From a virus, in the IMG/VR virus record IMGVR_UViG_3300036781_000444, positions 1-23,249 of that record: a stretch of 23,249 bases of DNA; one strand, given 5' to 3'. This document shows, one piece after another, positions 9,029 to 23,249 of the stretch. The position numbers and the translations under genes are program-made. The notes beneath the pieces are model-generated. The model was not told the DNA's origin. It made no database searches and saw only the letters and a list, made by a program, of their open reading frames with translations. The first letter of the stretch is position 1, and each line of letters begins with the position of its first letter.

Positions 9029-10592
9029 GGCATACATCAACGACTGGTGCCTGTTCGCCCGGGAATACCTGCGGGTGGATCTGGACGTTGAGCAGGAGGC
9101 TGTATTGCGCTCCGTACAGCACAATCCAAAGACATCAGTGGCCAGCGGCACCAGCCGCGGAAAAGACTATGTAGCAGCTGTGGCGGCTATCTGTTTTCTA
9201 TACCTTACTCCTCGTTGGGATAATGGCATCCTGGTTGCCAACACGAAGGTGGCGCTTACGGCGCCCACCGGCCGGCAGGTGAAAGACATCATGACGCCCG
9301 AGATCACCAGGATCTTTACCCGGTCCATCTACCTGCCCGGCACACTGGTAGGCAATGACATCCGGATACACCCTTACAAAGAATGGTTTCTGACGGGTTT
9401 TAAGGCGGATGACAAGAACACGGAAGCATGGACGGGTTTCCATGCGCCCAACGTATTGTACGTCGTTACAGAGGCTACAGGCCTGCCACAGACCGTTTTT
9501 GACGCAATCGAGGGTAACCTGCAGGGCAATAGCCGGCTGCTGATCGTCTTCAACCACAATATCAATACCGGCTATGCGCATGCGTCGACGCGCGACCCGG
9601 CTTTTAGTAAATTTCGGCTTAATTCCCTCAATGCGCCCAACGTCACTTTAAAGCAGATCAAATATCCGGGCCAGGTCAACTACGACTGGGTAAAGGACAG
9701 GGTGCGGGACTGGTGTATCATCATCGATAAGCAGGACATGAGCGTCATCGAGGGTGACTTTGAATGGGAAGGCGCCTGTTATCGCCCAAATGATCTGTTC
9801 CGCTCCAAGATCCTCGGACTCGGACCAAAGGCCAGCAATGGCGTCCTGGTCCCCATTGAATGGATCGAGCTGGCCAACCAGCGGTGGGCAGACTTCAATA
9901 AGAAGCGAAAGCCCATTGAAAAGCCGCTGCGTCTGGGCCTTGATGTGGCAGGTATGGGCAGGGACAACACCTGCTCGTGCCACCGATACGGTGATTACGT
10001 GAAGAAATTCGAGCTGAAAGAGAGCGGAGGGACTGCTAACCACATGGAGGTAACGGGCATATTTATGAATACGCTGAGGGCCAATCTGGATACATACCAT
10101 GGCCGCTATCCCCAAGGCTTTATTGACACGATTGGGGAAGGCGCCGGGGTGTTCAGCAGGGCAGCGGAGGTCTCCGACGAACAGCCGGCTGACAAGGTAT
10201 TCCAGGGCAGGATTTATAGCTCGAAGTTTTCCCAGGCTGCAAAGGATCTCGCCGGCAACCCCCTGAAGGATCACACTGAGCAATACGAATTTCTGAATAT
10301 GCGTGCATGGCTATACTGGGCGGTGCGCGACTGGTTGGATCCCAGCAAAGGATCAACCGCAATGCTGCCTCCGGATGACCAACTGGCGCAGGAACTCAGT
10401 GAAACCATGTGGAAGTTTAAAAGCAACGGCCGCTGGATCATGATCGAGGAGAAGGAAGAGCTGAAGAAGCGGTTGAAGCGGTCTCCGGATAAGGGTGACT
10501 CTCTAGCGTTGACCTTCTGGCCGGTACCGGATGTGGATCCGCGGCCGGAGAAGAGACAGTCTGCTGCACAATATTTATCGTCATTACCTTAA
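8994..10592 (+). CDS. Phage terminase large subunit
   Basis: 532 residues from the ATG at 8994 (in-frame ATGs further upstream would lie deep inside the small subunit gene). The ATPase part has a Walker A-like SGTSRGKDYVAA at 51-62, with Asp in place of the usual Thr/Ser, an APTGRQV segment (90-96), and a Walker B with catalytic Glu, VLYVVTEA at 154-161. The nuclease part (about 310-510) has an RNase H-like set: GLDVAG (D317), IDTIGEGAGVF (D378) and KGDSLALTFW (D502). It is the ATP-driven motor and headful/cos nuclease that moves DNA into the procapsid. Which packaging type cannot be told from sequence alone. The 35-base overlap with the small subunit gene suggests fixed stoichiometry by coupled translation. 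Confidence 0.9.
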   Translation: MQLPPAAKARFEAYINDWCLFAREYLRVDLDVEQEAVLRSVQHNPKTSVASGTSRGKDYVAAVAAICFLYLTPRWDNGILVANTKVALTAPTGRQVKDIMTPEITRIFTRSIYLPGTLVGNDIRIHPYKEWFLTGFKADDKNTEAWTGFHAPNVLYVVTEATGLPQTVFDAIEGNLQGNSRLLIVFNHNINTGYAHASTRDPAFSKFRLNSLNAPNVTLKQIKYPGQVNYDWVKDRVRDWCIIIDKQDMSVIEGDFEWEGACYRPNDLFRSKILGLGPKASNGVLVPIEWIELANQRWADFNKKRKPIEKPLRLGLDVAGMGRDNTCSCHRYGDYVKKFELKESGGTANHMEVTGIFMNTLRANLDTYHGRYPQGFIDTIGEGAGVFSRAAEVSDEQPADKVFQGRIYSSKFSQAAKDLAGNPLKDHTEQYEFLNMRAWLYWAVRDWLDPSKGSTAMLPPDDQLAQELSETMWKFKSNGRWIMIEEKEELKKRLKRSPDKGDSLALTFWPVPDVDPRPEKRQSAAQYLSSLP

Positions 10593-18279: not shown

Positions 18280-18804
18280 ATGGCTAAATATGGCCTTGGG
18301 CTTGAAAAGATCGAGCTCTCAGACATCGCAGAGGATGGTGGTCCCGGTGTGGCCTTTACGGCTATCGGCAACACTGTCCAGGGATCGGCCCAGCTGACTC
18401 AGGCTGATGGCACGACCACCGATTTTAACATCGAAGAGCAGGATGATCCGGTCGAGACCGTAGTATCCCAAAAAGGAAAGAAAACGCTGGCCTTCTCTTG
18501 TTTCGACGTGGATGGACCAACGCTGGTGAAATTCTTTGGCGGAACGTACACCGCTTACAATGCCACAGGACCGGTGCACGCCAGCTACTCGCCTAATGAT
18601 TCCGCCTCTGCGATCGAAAAGACGGTACGGCTGACGGACAAAAAGGGCAACATCTTCACGATCGTTCGCGGTAACATTGCTGCGAAGTTCAACTGGTCTT
18701 TCACGAAGGACAAGCTGGCTCAAGTGGACCTCACGGTCGACATCCTGGTGCCGACGAAGGAAGATACGCCATCCTTCTCGATACAGTATCCCGACCCTGC
18801 CTAA
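18280..18804 (+). CDS. Major tail tube protein
   Basis: 174 residues beginning MAKYGLGLEKIELSDI. The sequence has the beta-rich, Thr/Asp-rich composition of lambda V/SPP1 gp17.1-type tube proteins (FTAIGNTVQGSAQLTQADG, EEQDDPVETVVSQKGKKTL, and KGNIFTIVRGNIAAKFNW near the end). It polymerises into the long non-contractile tail tube. An A/T-rich leader (aaactaaaattctt) precedes it, and a clear intrinsic terminator follows 22 bases after its stop, which together suggest high and separately controlled expression. The gene order next to the G/GT-like chaperones and tape measure supports the call. Confidence 0.8.
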   Translation: MAKYGLGLEKIELSDIAEDGGPGVAFTAIGNTVQGSAQLTQADGTTTDFNIEEQDDPVETVVSQKGKKTLAFSCFDVDGPTLVKFFGGTYTAYNATGPVHASYSPNDSASAIEKTVRLTDKKGNIFTIVRGNIAAKFNWSFTKDKLAQVDLTVDILVPTKEDTPSFSIQYPDPA

Positions 18805-18855: not shown

Positions 18856-19356
18856 ATGGAAACAAAAACAGAAAAGCCGGCGGTCGATGTGCTGAAAGAG
18901 ACGACTGACACCATCCTCCAGGAGTCGGTGAATCTGGAGGTAGATATCCAGCCACGCGGATGGTTACACCAGTTGCTGCAACGCCGGCGCCTGACGGCAG
19001 TAAAGAAGGTGCTTACGATCCGTCCCATCACACTGGGCAACCTGGTACGCATATCGCGGATCCTGCTACAGATCGACCTCAAAAGCATCACAGGCAATAA
19101 CCTTGTCAACCTGAACTTCCAGTTGATCGATCTGTACGGCCATTCGATGTCGGAGATCGTGGCGATCGCAGTCTACAATAGAAAGGCGCCGCCTCCCCAG
19201 TCGCTGATCGACCTGGTAAATACAGAATTTACGTCCGCTGATCTCGCCCGGGCGATCGGGATCGTGCTCCGGCAGATGGACCTTTCCAGTTTTACCAGTA
19301 CTATCATCTCCGCCAGGGGCCTGACGGTGGTGAGCCCGAACGAACAGAGGAGTTAA
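18856..19356 (+). CDS. Tail assembly chaperone (gpG-like)
   Basis: 166 residues. It is helical and charged: RGWLHQLLQRRRLTAVKKVL, then LVRISRILLQIDLKSI, then FTSADLARAIGIVLRQMDL. Gene order (tail tube, two overlapping small ORFs, tape measure) is the lambda G/T arrangement in which the first protein and a -1 frameshift fusion wind around the tape measure during tail assembly. The final ~38 codons overlap an open -1 frame that continues past this stop. The start is at the ATG 5 bases after the terminator T tract. The family is poorly conserved in sequence, so the call rests on composition, position and the overlapping frame. Confidence 0.75.
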   Translation: METKTEKPAVDVLKETTDTILQESVNLEVDIQPRGWLHQLLQRRRLTAVKKVLTIRPITLGNLVRISRILLQIDLKSITGNNLVNLNFQLIDLYGHSMSEIVAIAVYNRKAPPPQSLIDLVNTEFTSADLARAIGIVLRQMDLSSFTSTIISARGLTVVSPNEQRS

Positions 19357-19556
19357 ATAGCCTCTGGTCCATGATCGGGGGCGTCGTCAAATACTTCCGT
19401 TTCTCTGTGGACTATGTGCTGTGGGAGATAAGCCACGCGAACCTGATCATGCTGATGGCGACGATTCCCCGGTATAAGAGCAGTAAGGACGAGGGCGGCT
19501 CGCCTGATCAGGACTTTGAAGATCTTACTAGTTTAGATAACTTTTTAAGAATGTAA
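19242..19556 (+). CDS. gpT-like frame, probably expressed as gpGT by -1 frameshift
   Basis: This frame (-1 relative to the chaperone gene) is open from 19242 to its stop at 19556 and has no good start at its 5' end; the first ATG is at 19371, 14 bases after the upstream stop. Residues before that ATG (GGEPERTEELNSLWS) read as natural protein and run on smoothly into MIGGVVKYFRFSVDYVLWEI and NLIMLMATIPRYKS. This suggests expression as a fusion by a -1 shift within 19242-19353, giving 233 residues in all. Candidate slip sites are the T4 run at 19290-19293 and the G4 run at 19316-19319, neither of which is a canonical heptamer. Translation from the ATG at 19371 alone (61 residues) is the alternative. 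Confidence 0.65.
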   Translation, partial: SRPGDRDRAPADGPFQFYQYYHLRQGPDGGEPERTEELNSLWSMIGGVVKYFRFSVDYVLWEISHANLIMLMATIPRYKSSKDEGGSPDQDFEDLTSLDNFLRM

Positions 19557-19558
19557 GC

Positions 19559-22500
19559 ATGTCAGTAAACGTATTAGGCGGTTCGCTGGAGTTTGATGCC
19601 ATCCTCACTACCGGGGATCTTCAATCAGGCATTGCTGCCGTAGAGGGTCAAATTCAAAAGACTATAGATTCCTTTGCGAACCTCGCGGAGAAAAGCGGAG
19701 AAAGCCTTGACCAGATGAAGGCAAAGCTGGCGGAGCTGGAGAAGCAGGAAGAAACGCTGCGGGTTGCGATCGATCAGGCAACGGATCCGGCAATGATAAA
19801 GCAATATAACGCCGCGCTGGCCGATACAGTAAGCCAGATGAAGGTATTGCAGCAGGCGATCGCTCAGGTCCAGGATGTTCCCGCTGTCCCACAGGTTGCT
19901 CCGACTGCTCCGGCAGAAAGGCCCGATCTTACAAAGGAAGAGCAGCAGGTCGAAGCGCTATATGCTCAATTAGCTAAGCTCAACGGCGAACTGGCATCGC
20001 TTACCAATTCGATTGATCAATCTTTGGATCCAAAAGAAGTAGAGCAATTCAATGTCCAAGTCGCTGAGACTGTAGCGCGGATGAAACAGCTGCAATCGGA
20101 GATCCAGGCCATTCAAGATAGTGGTCCGATCTCCGATACTGAAAAATTGAAGCAGCTGGAAGCAGAGCTCCAGATCCTGGAAAAACAGGCCGCCAGATTT
20201 AGAAGTTCTCTTTCGAATGCGATTAATCCAGAGCTAATTGCTCAGTACAACAAGGGACTGGATGACACGCAGGCCAAAATGAGGGCCATCTATATTCAGC
20301 TGGACGCCATCGAGCATAAGGAAGATGAGGCGCTGAAAACGCCGCCAGTTGTTCCGCCGGTAACTCCGCCGACCACCCCTACCGAGCCTGTCCAACCAGG
20401 AGGCAAGGACGAAGAAGTCCAGGTCGTCGAGAAAAAGATCCTTGCCTATCAGCGTTTACAACAGCTGAGGAACCAGCTGGCTTCTATGGATAAGAACGAC
20501 CCGGCTTTCAAGGCGACTTATGACGAAGCGGTCAAACTGCAAGGCCAGATCAACAACGTCAACCGGTCCCTGCAATTGACCAGCCGGAACGTTGTCGGCA
20601 TTGAGGCATTGACGCAGGGCGCCCGAGCCCTGGTAGGCGCGTTTCAGGCGTATAACGGCATTCTCGGCCTAACCACCGAAGACCAGGAGCAACTGCAAAA
20701 GTCGGTCACTGAAGTTGTGAGCGCGATGGGCGTGCTCAACGGGATCCAAGAGATCGCTGCCGTCCTCGACAAAAACAGTTCATTGAACATCTTCCTGCAA
20801 AAGCAATTTCGCAAAGATGCGGCTGTTGCCACCACGGAGCAGGCCGCTGCGACGGAAGTGCTGGCCGGGGCGCAGGAAGCAGAGGCCGTCGCTACAGGTG
20901 AGGCCGCGGTGGCCCAGGAGACGCTCAATGTCGCGATGGAATCCAATCCTGTGGGTATCATTCTGCTGGCGCTTACGGCCATCGTTGTAGCTCTGCAGGC
21001 TTATGCCTCGGGACAGAAAGACGCGACTGAGCAGCAGACGAAAGCCAACGAGGCTGCTGCGGAGGCTGCTGATACCCTGGCGAAGCTGGTTGATCAGTAC
21101 CGGCAGGTCAGGGATGCACAGGCCCGTTCGGCTGCTGATGCCGTTAGCCTGGCGCAGGCGCAGGGGCAATCGGAGCAGGCAGTGCTGGGGCTTAAACTGA
21201 AGCAGCTGGAGGCCGAAAAGACCGCTAATAGTTATGCCCTGGCGCAGTTGGGTTATAGCTCCGAGGTCTATGCCGACCAACAGGCTACCTTGCAAATTCG
21301 ACTGGAAGAACTTCAGGCCCTGCAGTCTGTCGCCGAAAATGGCGGAGAGCTTTCCAGTCAAAGTAAGGAACGTCTCGCATTGCTACAGGCCCAGATCAAA
21401 GCCCTGGAAGCTCAGATAAACCCTACAAAGGCGCTGATACAAGCCAATGAAACCCTTAATGCCCAAATTGCATCCAACAACGCAGAGCGTGATAAAAAGG
21501 CGTACGACGCCTCCCTGAAGTCGGCCCAGGCGGTCGCTGATGCAAAATTGTTGGTAGACAGAAAGTATACCGCTCAGGCACTGGCCGATCAGGTCGATGC
21601 GATTAAGGCAAGCGCCCTGGTTGAACTGAATAATCCCAACCTTACCTCCGGGGAACAATTTAAGATTCAGCAGAAGCAACAAAAGGATATACAAGACGCC
21701 ACCCGGGAATATCAGGCCGCGCAGCTGAGGTCCGCTCAGGACTTTGCCGACGCCCGACTTCTGATCGATAAGAAGTACACCAAGCAGTCGCTTGATGATC
21801 AAATTGCCGCCATCAAAGCCCGGACGCAGGTAGATCTGGCAAATCCGGATCTGCTTCCTGGCCAGCAAGCGAAGATCCTCGCACAGCAGAAAAAAGACAT
21901 CGACGATGCGAACCGGGAATACAAGCTGGATCAGCTGAATGCGCAGCGCGATACAATCGAGGCCCAGCTGGCCCTTGTTAAAGAGGGGTCGGCTGAAGAG
22001 CTGAGCCTTAAGCTACGGCTTATACAGACCACTTCCGCCGCCGAGATTGTCGAGGCGCAGGATAATGACGCCAAAATTGCCAAAATAACAGCAGCCCGCG
22101 CAAAGGCGTCCGCCGACCTGACAACGAAATATTCTCTGGACGCAGCGGAAGCAGAGGCCGAGGCCACGGTTGCCGGCACCAACGCCAAGCTGGCTGTTGT
22201 TCAGAAAGGATCGGAACAGGAATTGGCCCTAAAAAAACAGCTGGTAGCTGATCAAGCTGCCCTCGATACCATTCAAGCCCAGGAGCGCACCAAAAATGAG
22301 GATACATTAGCTGCAAAGATTCTGAAGATCAATGCCAAGTCGGCAGTGGATAAGAAGAAAATAGATGATAACTATTACGATACCTTACTGCAAAGGCAAT
22401 TAAAAGTCATCGCAAACGAGACGTCTGTAAAAAACGCTCCTTTGCAGGCTATTATAAATAACCCATTTTCTACAAACCCGGCCGTTGAAGACTCTCAAAG

Positions 22501-23249
22501 ACAGCAGTTCCAAAATGATATCGAGGAGATTCAAAAGCAGTTGGATCTCGTCAGTAATAATATTTTGCAGCAGCGTGGGGATCTCGGGAAATTGGAGCAA
22601 GACCTTGCCGCCCTTAAAGCAAAAAAGGCTGCGGCGCAGGCTGACCTCAACACCTTCGATCAAAAGATCGATTACAAGAATTTACAGACGTACCTACAGG
22701 GGATTTCGTCCCTCTCCGGTCAGTTCAAGGACCTTGGCTCATCTTTAAAAAACATAAATCCTGAGCTTGCGGATCTGTTCGATAGATTAGGATCTATAAC
22801 AGATGTTGCCGGAAAAGCCGCGAAGGCTATATTGTCATTTGTAAAAGGCGGTCCGACCGGAATAGTCGATGGGGTTATCGCGGGCATAGGGGCCATCGTT
22901 TCGCTCATTTCGACGGCCTTCAGCGATAACGATGAAATGAAGCAGCAGGTGGCCGAAATGCAGAATCAGGTGATTATCGGGGAGGTTGAGATTACGCGCC
23001 AGTATGACCTTCGCCTGGTTGACCAGGCGAAATTGAATCAACTTCGGTTGCAGGGGATCAAGGACGAACAACAGGCCCTCCAGCAACAGGCGCGGGATAC
23101 TCAGAGCGAATTCAATGACCTGCTGGTCGAAATACAGAAATTGTCGGGAACGAAGCTCGCTCCGGCGGCAATAGGCAATGGATTGTTGCCACATACGTTC
23201 AGTCTGGCCGGGCTGAGCTATGATGAGCTTAACGAGCTCTTTTTAAAGG
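19559..23249 (+). CDS. Tape measure protein (C-terminus outside window)
   Basis: Open from the ATG at 19559 to the right edge without a stop (1230 codons visible). Long, helical and Gln/Ala/Lys rich, with a typical tape measure layout. The N-terminal half has imperfect repeats around 'ID...DP..I.QYN' (about residues 70, 151, 219), a Pro/Thr-rich linker (about 261-282), and a hydrophobic segment VGIILLALTAIVVALQAYA (about 465-483). A central coiled-coil block carries 70-residue tandem repeats (655-794) and two 74-residue copies after 802. A second apolar segment lies near 1105-1121. It sets tail length, fills the tube and probably inserts in the cell envelope at DNA entry. Start follows the gpT-like stop by 2 bases. 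No muramidase or peptidase motif seen in the visible part. Confidence 0.88.
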   Translation, partial: MSVNVLGGSLEFDAILTTGDLQSGIAAVEGQIQKTIDSFANLAEKSGESLDQMKAKLAELEKQEETLRVAIDQATDPAMIKQYNAALADTVSQMKVLQQAIAQVQDVPAVPQVAPTAPAERPDLTKEEQQVEALYAQLAKLNGELASLTNSIDQSLDPKEVEQFNVQVAETVARMKQLQSEIQAIQDSGPISDTEKLKQLEAELQILEKQAARFRSSLSNAINPELIAQYNKGLDDTQAKMRAIYIQLDAIEHKEDEALKTPPVVPPVTPPTTPTEPVQPGGKDEEVQVVEKKILAYQRLQQLRNQLASMDKNDPAFKATYDEAVKLQGQINNVNRSLQLTSRNVVGIEALTQGARALVGAFQAYNGILGLTTEDQEQLQKSVTEVVSAMGVLNGIQEIAAVLDKNSSLNIFLQKQFRKDAAVATTEQAAATEVLAGAQEAEAVATGEAAVAQETLNVAMESNPVGIILLALTAIVVALQAYASGQKDATEQQTKANEAAAEAADTLAKLVDQYRQVRDAQARSAADAVSLAQAQGQSEQAVLGLKLKQLEAEKTANSYALAQLGYSSEVYADQQATLQIRLEELQALQSVAENGGELSSQSKERLALLQAQIKALEAQINPTKALIQANETLNAQIASNNAERDKKAYDASLKSAQAVADAKLLVDRKYTAQALADQVDAIKASALVELNNPNLTSGEQFKIQQKQQKDIQDATREYQAAQLRSAQDFADARLLIDKKYTKQSLDDQIAAIKARTQVDLANPDLLPGQQAKILAQQKKDIDDANREYKLDQLNAQRDTIEAQLALVKEGSAEELSLKLRLIQTTSAAEIVEAQDNDAKIAKITAARAKASADLTTKYSLDAAEAEAEATVAGTNAKLAVVQKGSEQELALKKQLVADQAALDTIQAQERTKNEDTLAAKILKINAKSAVDKKKIDDNYYDTLLQRQLKVIANETSVKNAPLQAIINNPFSTNPAVEDSQRQQFQNDIEEIQKQLDLVSNNILQQRGDLGKLEQDLAALKAKKAAAQADLNTFDQKIDYKNLQTYLQGISSLSGQFKDLGSSLKNINPELADLFDRLGSITDVAGKAAKAILSFVKGGPTGIVDGVIAGIGAIVSLISTAFSDNDEMKQQVAEMQNQVIIGEVEITRQYDLRLVDQAKLNQLRLQGIKDEQQALQQQARDTQSEFNDLLVEIQKLSGTKLAPAAIGNGLLPHTFSLAGLSYDELNELFLK
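21521..21940 (+). repeat. Two tandem 70-residue repeats in the tape measure
   Basis: Bases 21521-21730 and 21731-21940 encode two adjacent copies of one 70-residue unit: SAQAVADAKLLVDRKYTAQA in the first against SAQDFADARLLIDKKYTKQS in the second, then matching 'KIQQKQQKDIQDATREY' and 'KILAQQKKDIDDANREY' stretches. DNA identity is clearly lower than protein similarity, so the duplication is old. Tape measure length changes by such units would change tail length. Confidence 0.82.
21962..22405 (+). repeat. Two degenerate 74-residue repeats in the tape measure
   Basis: Units starting at 21962 and 22184 share AQLALVKEGSAEELSLKLRL against AKLAVVQKGSEQELALKKQL, followed by a looser match. They lie directly after the 70-residue tandem pair and have a different period and sequence. 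Confidence 0.6.

Follow-up and report, generated by a model that had tools for sequence, protein, structure and literature searches.

A conserved T_TTT tetramer as the probable -1 slip site of a putative tail-chaperone gene pair in a phage family

We detected two overlapping reading frames, here called G and T, in the window (the whole stretch of 23,249 nt that was analysed, from IMG/VR record IMGVR_UViG_3300036781_000444) that very probably form a lambda-type G/GT tail-chaperone pair, in which a -1 slip at TTTT 19290-19293 would allow a minority of ribosomes to produce a 233-residue GT protein. The majority of ribosomes would translate G, with a G:GT ratio presumably in favour of G. The minority would slip back one base with tRNA-Phe on TTT 19291-19293, which would re-pair on the identical triplet 19290-19292, and would continue in the -1 frame through T as far as 19556, yielding G residues 1-146 followed by 87 further residues. 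The slip motif would be the tetramer U_UU.U. The preceding Ser tRNA should be unable to re-pair in the window (AGT to CAG), so that slippage would involve one Phe tRNA, or a tandem slip without P-site pairing. A -1 frameshift of the G/GT type had been proposed in an earlier sequence-only reading of this DNA, and comparison of relatives, 151/157 of which have the two-frame arrangement, supports it well.

The G/T locus, its predicted function and its relatives

The features of the locus are given in Table 1. The -1 frame overlaps G by 115 nt and extends 200 nt past the G stop; its opening, overlap, extension and end had been placed exactly by the sequence-only reading, and the fusion length that it gave (233 residues, from 146 + 87) was reproduced for a slip on TTTT. 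No X_XXY_YYZ heptamer occurs in the G/-1 overlap of the window, as had been stated before. The overlap contains three in-frame Z_ZZN tetramers: T_TTT (19290-19293, zero-frame codons AGT TTT), G_GGC (19317-19320) and C_CCG (19335-19338). The tracts TTTT and GGGG (19316-19319, zero-frame codons AGG GGC) listed by the earlier reading are both present, but C_CCG was missing from its list.

Table 1. Positions of the G/T genes, the candidate slip site, the predicted hairpin and the neighbouring genes in the window
Feature	Position	Strand	Remarks
Tail tube protein gene, upstream neighbour	18280..18804	+	Pfam Phage_TTP_17, E=9.3e-7, above cut-off
G gene	18856-19356	+	Zero frame, ATG..TAA, 166 aa; predicted tail assembly chaperone
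Open -1 frame	19242..19556	+	TGA 19239-19241 before, open 19242-19553, TAA 19554-19556
Slip site C_AGT_TTT (candidate)	19287..19293	+	Conserved element is the tetramer T_TTT, 19290-19293
T part as post-slip translation (F of slip codon + 87 residues)	19290..19556	+	F-[YF]-x-x-Y start conserved in relatives
10-nt spacer, slip codon to predicted hairpin	19294..19303	+	
Predicted downstream hairpin	19304..19333	+	TCATC/GGTGA, CCG/CGG, CAG/CTG; -13.1 kcal/mol
Long open frame, downstream neighbour	19559..23249	+	1230 codons, runs off window; tape measure gene position

The gene order fits a G/T arrangement, with an overlapping pair placed after the tail tube gene (identified by Pfam) and before a long frame, and with the second member in -1 without a start of its own. 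Tape measure proteins are annotated at the position downstream of G/T in three relatives (L002, L005, and L009), and a profile search with the window frame 19559-23249 gave no tape-measure match. This frame matches phrog_971, labelled endolysin, with E=2.9e-5 over 475 residues; we do not accept this label literally, and the similarity is perhaps a coiled-coil match.

The G protein of the window has no Pfam match, and its PHROG matches (15994, 12247, and 14983) are all families of unassigned function. Among 73 family members, one matches Phage_TAC_12 (E=0.0021). The AlphaFold model of G (pLDDT 86.6) showed low-scoring VIA-align similarity to 3klu (YqbN, Z 4.4) and 3fgx (Z 4.3), which we take to be chaperone relatives, and to the HK97 chaperone 2ob9 (Z 3.8 over 101 residues, 6.8 A). 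The second match in BFVD is annotated as 'Pre-tape measure frameshift protein G' of Xylella phage Sano (E=6.5e-3) and several more are named tail assembly chaperone, while Foldseek against PDB returned no significant match for the G model and none under E 0.9. The T part matches phrog_11996 (E=1.2e-9), and its model is poor (pLDDT 70). The fold is insufficient on its own; because the weak fold matches and the gene order point the same way, G is likely a tail assembly chaperone.

We assembled 157 loci, counting the window and its own copy (L001), of which 151 carry T in the -1 frame and six encode both parts in a single ORF (L010, L060, L062, L091, L118, and L139; excluded from all slip counts). 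G is truncated within the locus in three of the 151. Removal of 48 sites as redundant at 85% left 103 non-redundant sites, from which the 73 and 71 sequences of two alignments (A8 and A9) were chosen. A tblastn search with the -1 frame detected 57 phage records, nearly all from Bacteroides, Riemerella, Porphyromonas or uncultured phages; ten regions were examined among these matches, and nine have the same overlap while in one (L010) a single ORF encodes both parts. Scanning viral contigs with a profile identified 72 viral loci, with matches that mostly begin at the F of TTTT, although the query itself started at that F and the scan alone cannot fix the start. Searches with the single G protein against viral contigs and phages gave no matches because G diverges faster than T, and alignment A1 is too variable to serve as a query. 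Genome searches gave two matches in 396 genomes of the order of G001 and 49 in 400 of the order of G002; all 20 retrieved places were used.

The nearest viral-contig relatives of the window are L084 and L085 (66% over 62 residues), and a prophage-like relative (L086) is present in the metagenome-assembled genome Sphingobacteriales bacterium 50-39 (68% over 60 residues). Based on these relatives, a Bacteroidota host is likely. One phage record, OQ791282 ('Shigella phage Henu10'), has a match at 9690-9896 with coordinates and identity equal to those in Riemerella phage vB_RanS_PT15 (ON933637), and may be mislabelled.

Position of the slip site and start of the -1 coding frame

The motif NNT|TTN is found at the position of the TTTT of the window in 151/151 two-frame loci, and on a tree of the 103 non-redundant loci the wobble T before the slip codon underwent 0 changes (compared with 26-55, mean 41, at nine other upstream wobble sites), but per-locus sites were chosen among T_TT sites and the T is present by construction in both the site count and the tree test. 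The tree itself was built from protein parts without the slip site. The alignment of G proteins, the stops and conserved residues of the -1 frame and the single-ORF homologues do not depend on this choice of site alone. In the slip-independent check, based on 73 aligned zero-frame G proteins, the column of F146 holds F in 72/73 and the preceding base is T in 72/73; in L020, the sole exception, T_TTG is shifted downstream by one codon. The wobble position of the column preceding F146 is 98.6% T in these 73 proteins, and no wobble column further upstream exceeds 58%.

The slip codon is TTT in 99, TTC in three and TTG in one of the 103 loci. The residue preceding it changed at least 34 times on the same tree, and 12 amino acids are found there, every codon ending in T. 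An invariant wobble T despite a varying residue indicates selection on the nucleotide, pointing to TTTT 19290-19293 as the slip site. The sequence-only reading had proposed to look for conserved bases between 19242 and 19353, with TTTT or GGGG as candidates; this comparison recovered the invariant wobble T at TTTT, which is taken as the site, whereas GGGG is not conserved.

The distribution of stops shows where the -1 frame becomes coding. Across the 103 loci, the 12 codons preceding the slip codon contain 59 -1-frame stops, and the slip codon and the next 13 codons contain none (0/103 at each). In relatives, stops approach the slip codon to within two codons on its upstream side; in five of the 103 loci, the open T frame extends back from the slip by at most one codon. 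Position 0 of the -1 protein is F in 103/103 and position +4 is Y in 100/103, and the -1 frames of the window and L086 share 4/16 residues before the slip and 7/12 just after it. A conserved slip site is followed directly by a coding -1 frame. With no -1 stops after the slip and an unconserved ATG 19371, these relatives strongly support the preference of the sequence-only reading for a fusion over a separate gene of 61 residues; a relative with a -1 stop upstream of 19371 had been named as counter-evidence, and the stops found there are all upstream of the slip codon. The peptide ERTEELNSLWS, which had been thought to be real protein, lies inside the fusion, but coding does not extend back to 19242, as the -1 protein starts with FYQYYHL at 19290.

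The single-ORF relatives carry the two parts already joined. Within the one continuous ORF of L118, residue 174 is the last matched by the G profile and residue 175 the first matched by that of T, which places the junction where the slip would join the two parts. L091 encodes ...VEEFIHYFGLD... in a single frame, resembling the slip product ...SSFYQYYHL..., and L139, L010, L060, and L062 are further one-ORF fusions. A script had classed L139 as a '+1' and L091 as a '-1' arrangement, and both were rejected as such since their translations are single ORFs. Judged from their reading frames, the six fused phages presumably make the long form only, in which case a separate G product would not be universal in the family.

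Slip motif, downstream stem and alternative explanations

The heptamer position of the window reads CAGTTTT (C_AGT_TTT), which departs from the canonical X_XXY_YYZ and retains the Z_ZZN tetramer. At the homologous position, a full XXXTTTN heptamer was identified in 43/103 non-redundant loci. The bases before TTTN are most often GGA (23), AAA (22) and GGG (18), followed by GTC, GGC and others, and G_GGT_TTT (18) and A_AAT_TTT (22) together account for 40/103 sites. The base at -4 equals that at -3 in 82 of the 103 loci, compared with a mean of 41.6 (sd 4.3, maximum 55) in 5000 shuffles and with 15-28 at other codon borders. This excess indicates that the family favours a P-site tRNA able to re-pair, without requiring one. 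With C_AGT, the window belongs to the 21 loci lacking this identity and has the weaker kind of slip site.

Just upstream of the slip, in the window (19270-19290) and in the relatives, predicted anti-Shine-Dalgarno pairing rises to a mean of -3.17 kcal/mol at -12, from about -1 further up; this perhaps partly reflects GGG GGT codons. The probable Bacteroidota hosts belong to bacteria that use Shine-Dalgarno sequences little.

Downstream of the slip site, 45-nt stretches starting 11-14 nt past the slip codon's first base show a sharp dip in folding energy, which is average again at 17. A 16-nt arm placed 8 nt past this base has a mean duplex energy of -11.97 vs -9.07 with codon-shuffled downstream sequence (mean z -1.51), and arms placed elsewhere give -8.6 to -10.2. 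Among the 103 loci, the z of arm pairing is below -2 in 39 and at or above -1 in 47.

A covariation-supported stem starting 5-10 nt after the slip codon was found in two groups of relatives, A4 and A6, neither of which contains the window. The A4 stem (37 loci) has 12 bp and is separated from the slip codon by 5 nt, its clearest form being CTCTATCAGATC...GATCTGATAGAG. Paired bases make up 87.6% of the A4 cells, a percentage that is biased towards the stem since both groups were assembled by eye after the stem had been seen (A4 nevertheless includes L132, which lacks it); the compensatory counts are less affected. Both sides changed 38 times in A4, compared with 14.9 +/- 3.0 in shuffled alignments and at most 14 in slid controls, and RNAalifold found eight of the 12 pairs unaided. 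The 7-bp stem of A6 (24 loci) starts 10 nt after the slip codon, with both sides changed 30 times vs 10.0 +/- 2.2 shuffled and at most 11 in slid controls. None of 500 shuffles reached the compensatory counts of A4 or A6.

The hairpin predicted in the window is no better than shuffles (z 0.19), as are the 107-nt fold (z 0.31) and the pairing of its 5' arm compared with codon-shuffled downstream sequence (z 0.6). The hairpin of the near relative L084 has the same position and layout and a z of -2.48. In the reading proposed here, the hairpin at 19304-19333 would probably stimulate the slip in the window.

By heptamer class, sites with XXX before TTTN have 22 short, 16 long and five no spacers, those with XXN 11, 21 and seven, and all others four, 15 and two; the tendency of canonical heptamers towards short spacers is a trend that is confounded by ancestry. 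A second dip in folding energy, for 45-nt stretches 59-92 nt past the first base of the slip codon (mean z down to -0.75, relatives included), sits around the G stop and TTAAATAGCC (19350-19385 in the window), where a 10-bp hairpin is predicted at 19360-19382.

Could T be a gene of its own, translated from ATG 19371 as a 61-residue protein, either through internal initiation or because ribosomes re-initiate once G has ended? This ATG is located 14 nt past the G stop, GAGGAG at 19347-19352 resembles a Shine-Dalgarno sequence, and in public records T appears as a short hypothetical protein of its own with an internal start (L002, 1726-1854; L005, 1633-1833; L007, 1588-1773), with no frameshift among the displayed features of these three records. 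However, conservation of the -1 frame begins at the F at 19290, 27 codons ahead of the ATG, and M is found at the ATG column in 9/71 relatives, the nearest relative being without it. Upstream of the slip, the T frame contains no ATG, GTG or TTG in 90/103 loci, and the first one after it is located a median of 44 codons downstream. The six single-ORF homologues also speak against a separate gene, which we consider very unlikely.

Slippage of RNA polymerase on the T run would give the same fusion without a ribosomal slip, and the homopolymer at the site, with six or more T in a few relatives, would suit it. Four T are short for transcriptional slippage, some relatives have only TTTC (3/103) or ATTTG (1/103), and the codon-phased identity of -4 and -3 (82/103) and a covarying stem at ribosomal spacing fit a ribosome, making this explanation extremely unlikely. 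A ribosomal slip elsewhere in the overlap, at GGGG (19316-19319) or C_CCG (19335), is the least probable of all: G_GGC and C_CCG are in-frame Z_ZZN tetramers, but the -1 protein is already conserved eight codons before GGGG, even the nearest relative has no G run, and C_CCG has no support from relatives. Moreover, neither G_GG.C nor C_CC.G is among the six clearly shift-prone tetramers of E. coli in the excerpts of PMC4066793.

Relation to known frameshift systems

A ribosomal slip at TTTT is of a known kind, whereas the G/T family and its relaxed slip site appear to be undescribed in the literature searched: within open-licence publications on tail chaperones and frameshifts in Bacteroides, Flavobacter- and Riemerella phages, no description of this family was found. 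The comparison assigns a precise, testable slip site to a large phage tail gene family, in which the second product has been missed or is listed as a hypothetical protein of its own. The absence of a heptamer does not imply the absence of a slip site. The family is also a natural series in which the tetramer is fixed while the preceding codon and the spacer vary, from which it may be learned how much P-site re-pairing matters. Tentatively, and with less than even confidence, we propose that tail-chaperone frameshifting in Bacteroidota phages uses a bare U_UUY and a stem, with P-site re-pairing an option that was repeatedly lost and gained, giving a series from the canonical heptamer to one-tRNA slippage; loci with short spacers (5 nt) might slip while Phe occupies the A site, and those with long spacers (9-10 nt, including the window) one step later, when it occupies the P site.

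Phage lambda slips on a G_GGA_AAG-type heptamer. The window family differs in its T_TTT with a variable preceding codon and in having relatives that are single-ORF fusions, and lacks detectable sequence similarity to named chaperones except for the one weak Phage_TAC_12 match. As in lambda, a tail tube gene is followed by G, an overlapping T in -1 and a long downstream gene, and the fusion consists of most of G with a short C-terminal extension (excerpts of PMC5009743).

In the PRFect work on phage chaperone frameshifts, most annotated overlaps are likewise reported to lack XXXYYY, and other motifs are listed (excerpts of PMC10885494). Judged by its name alone, the motif 'twoonefour' would fit GGATTTT, whereas the motif names in these excerpts do not fit CAGTTTT of the window; the term Bacteroid- is absent from the same text.

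The window site resembles Z_ZZN tetramers, which are described as the least that almost every -1 frameshift needs in sequence (excerpts of the review PMC5009743). In E. coli, such tetramers direct -1 frameshifting in the presence of a stimulator, in the order A_AA.G >> U_UU.C > U_UU.U, reaching 0.26-5.6% when the stimulator is strong and almost zero when there is none, and U_UU.Y is among the most shift-prone (excerpts of PMC4066793). The suggestion of the sequence-only reading that the slip mechanism may be unusual thus holds in part: the site of the window is not a canonical one, but U_UU.U has been described as a minimal slip motif and 43/103 loci have a heptamer. R_RR.U_UU.Y heptamers are described as exceptional, the shiftiness of UUY making up for a mixed P-site codon (excerpts of PMC4066793); the 40/103 family sites with G_GGT_TTT or A_AAT_TTT resemble this class, whereas C_AGT_TTT of the window falls outside it. 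Like the Z_ZZN sites of E. coli assays (U_UU.Y) and of the IS1 and IS3 families, the window site would combine one re-pairing tRNA with a downstream RNA structure (excerpts of PMC4066793), but the phage family keeps its tetramer constant while the preceding codon encodes 12 amino acids and many loci have full heptamers.
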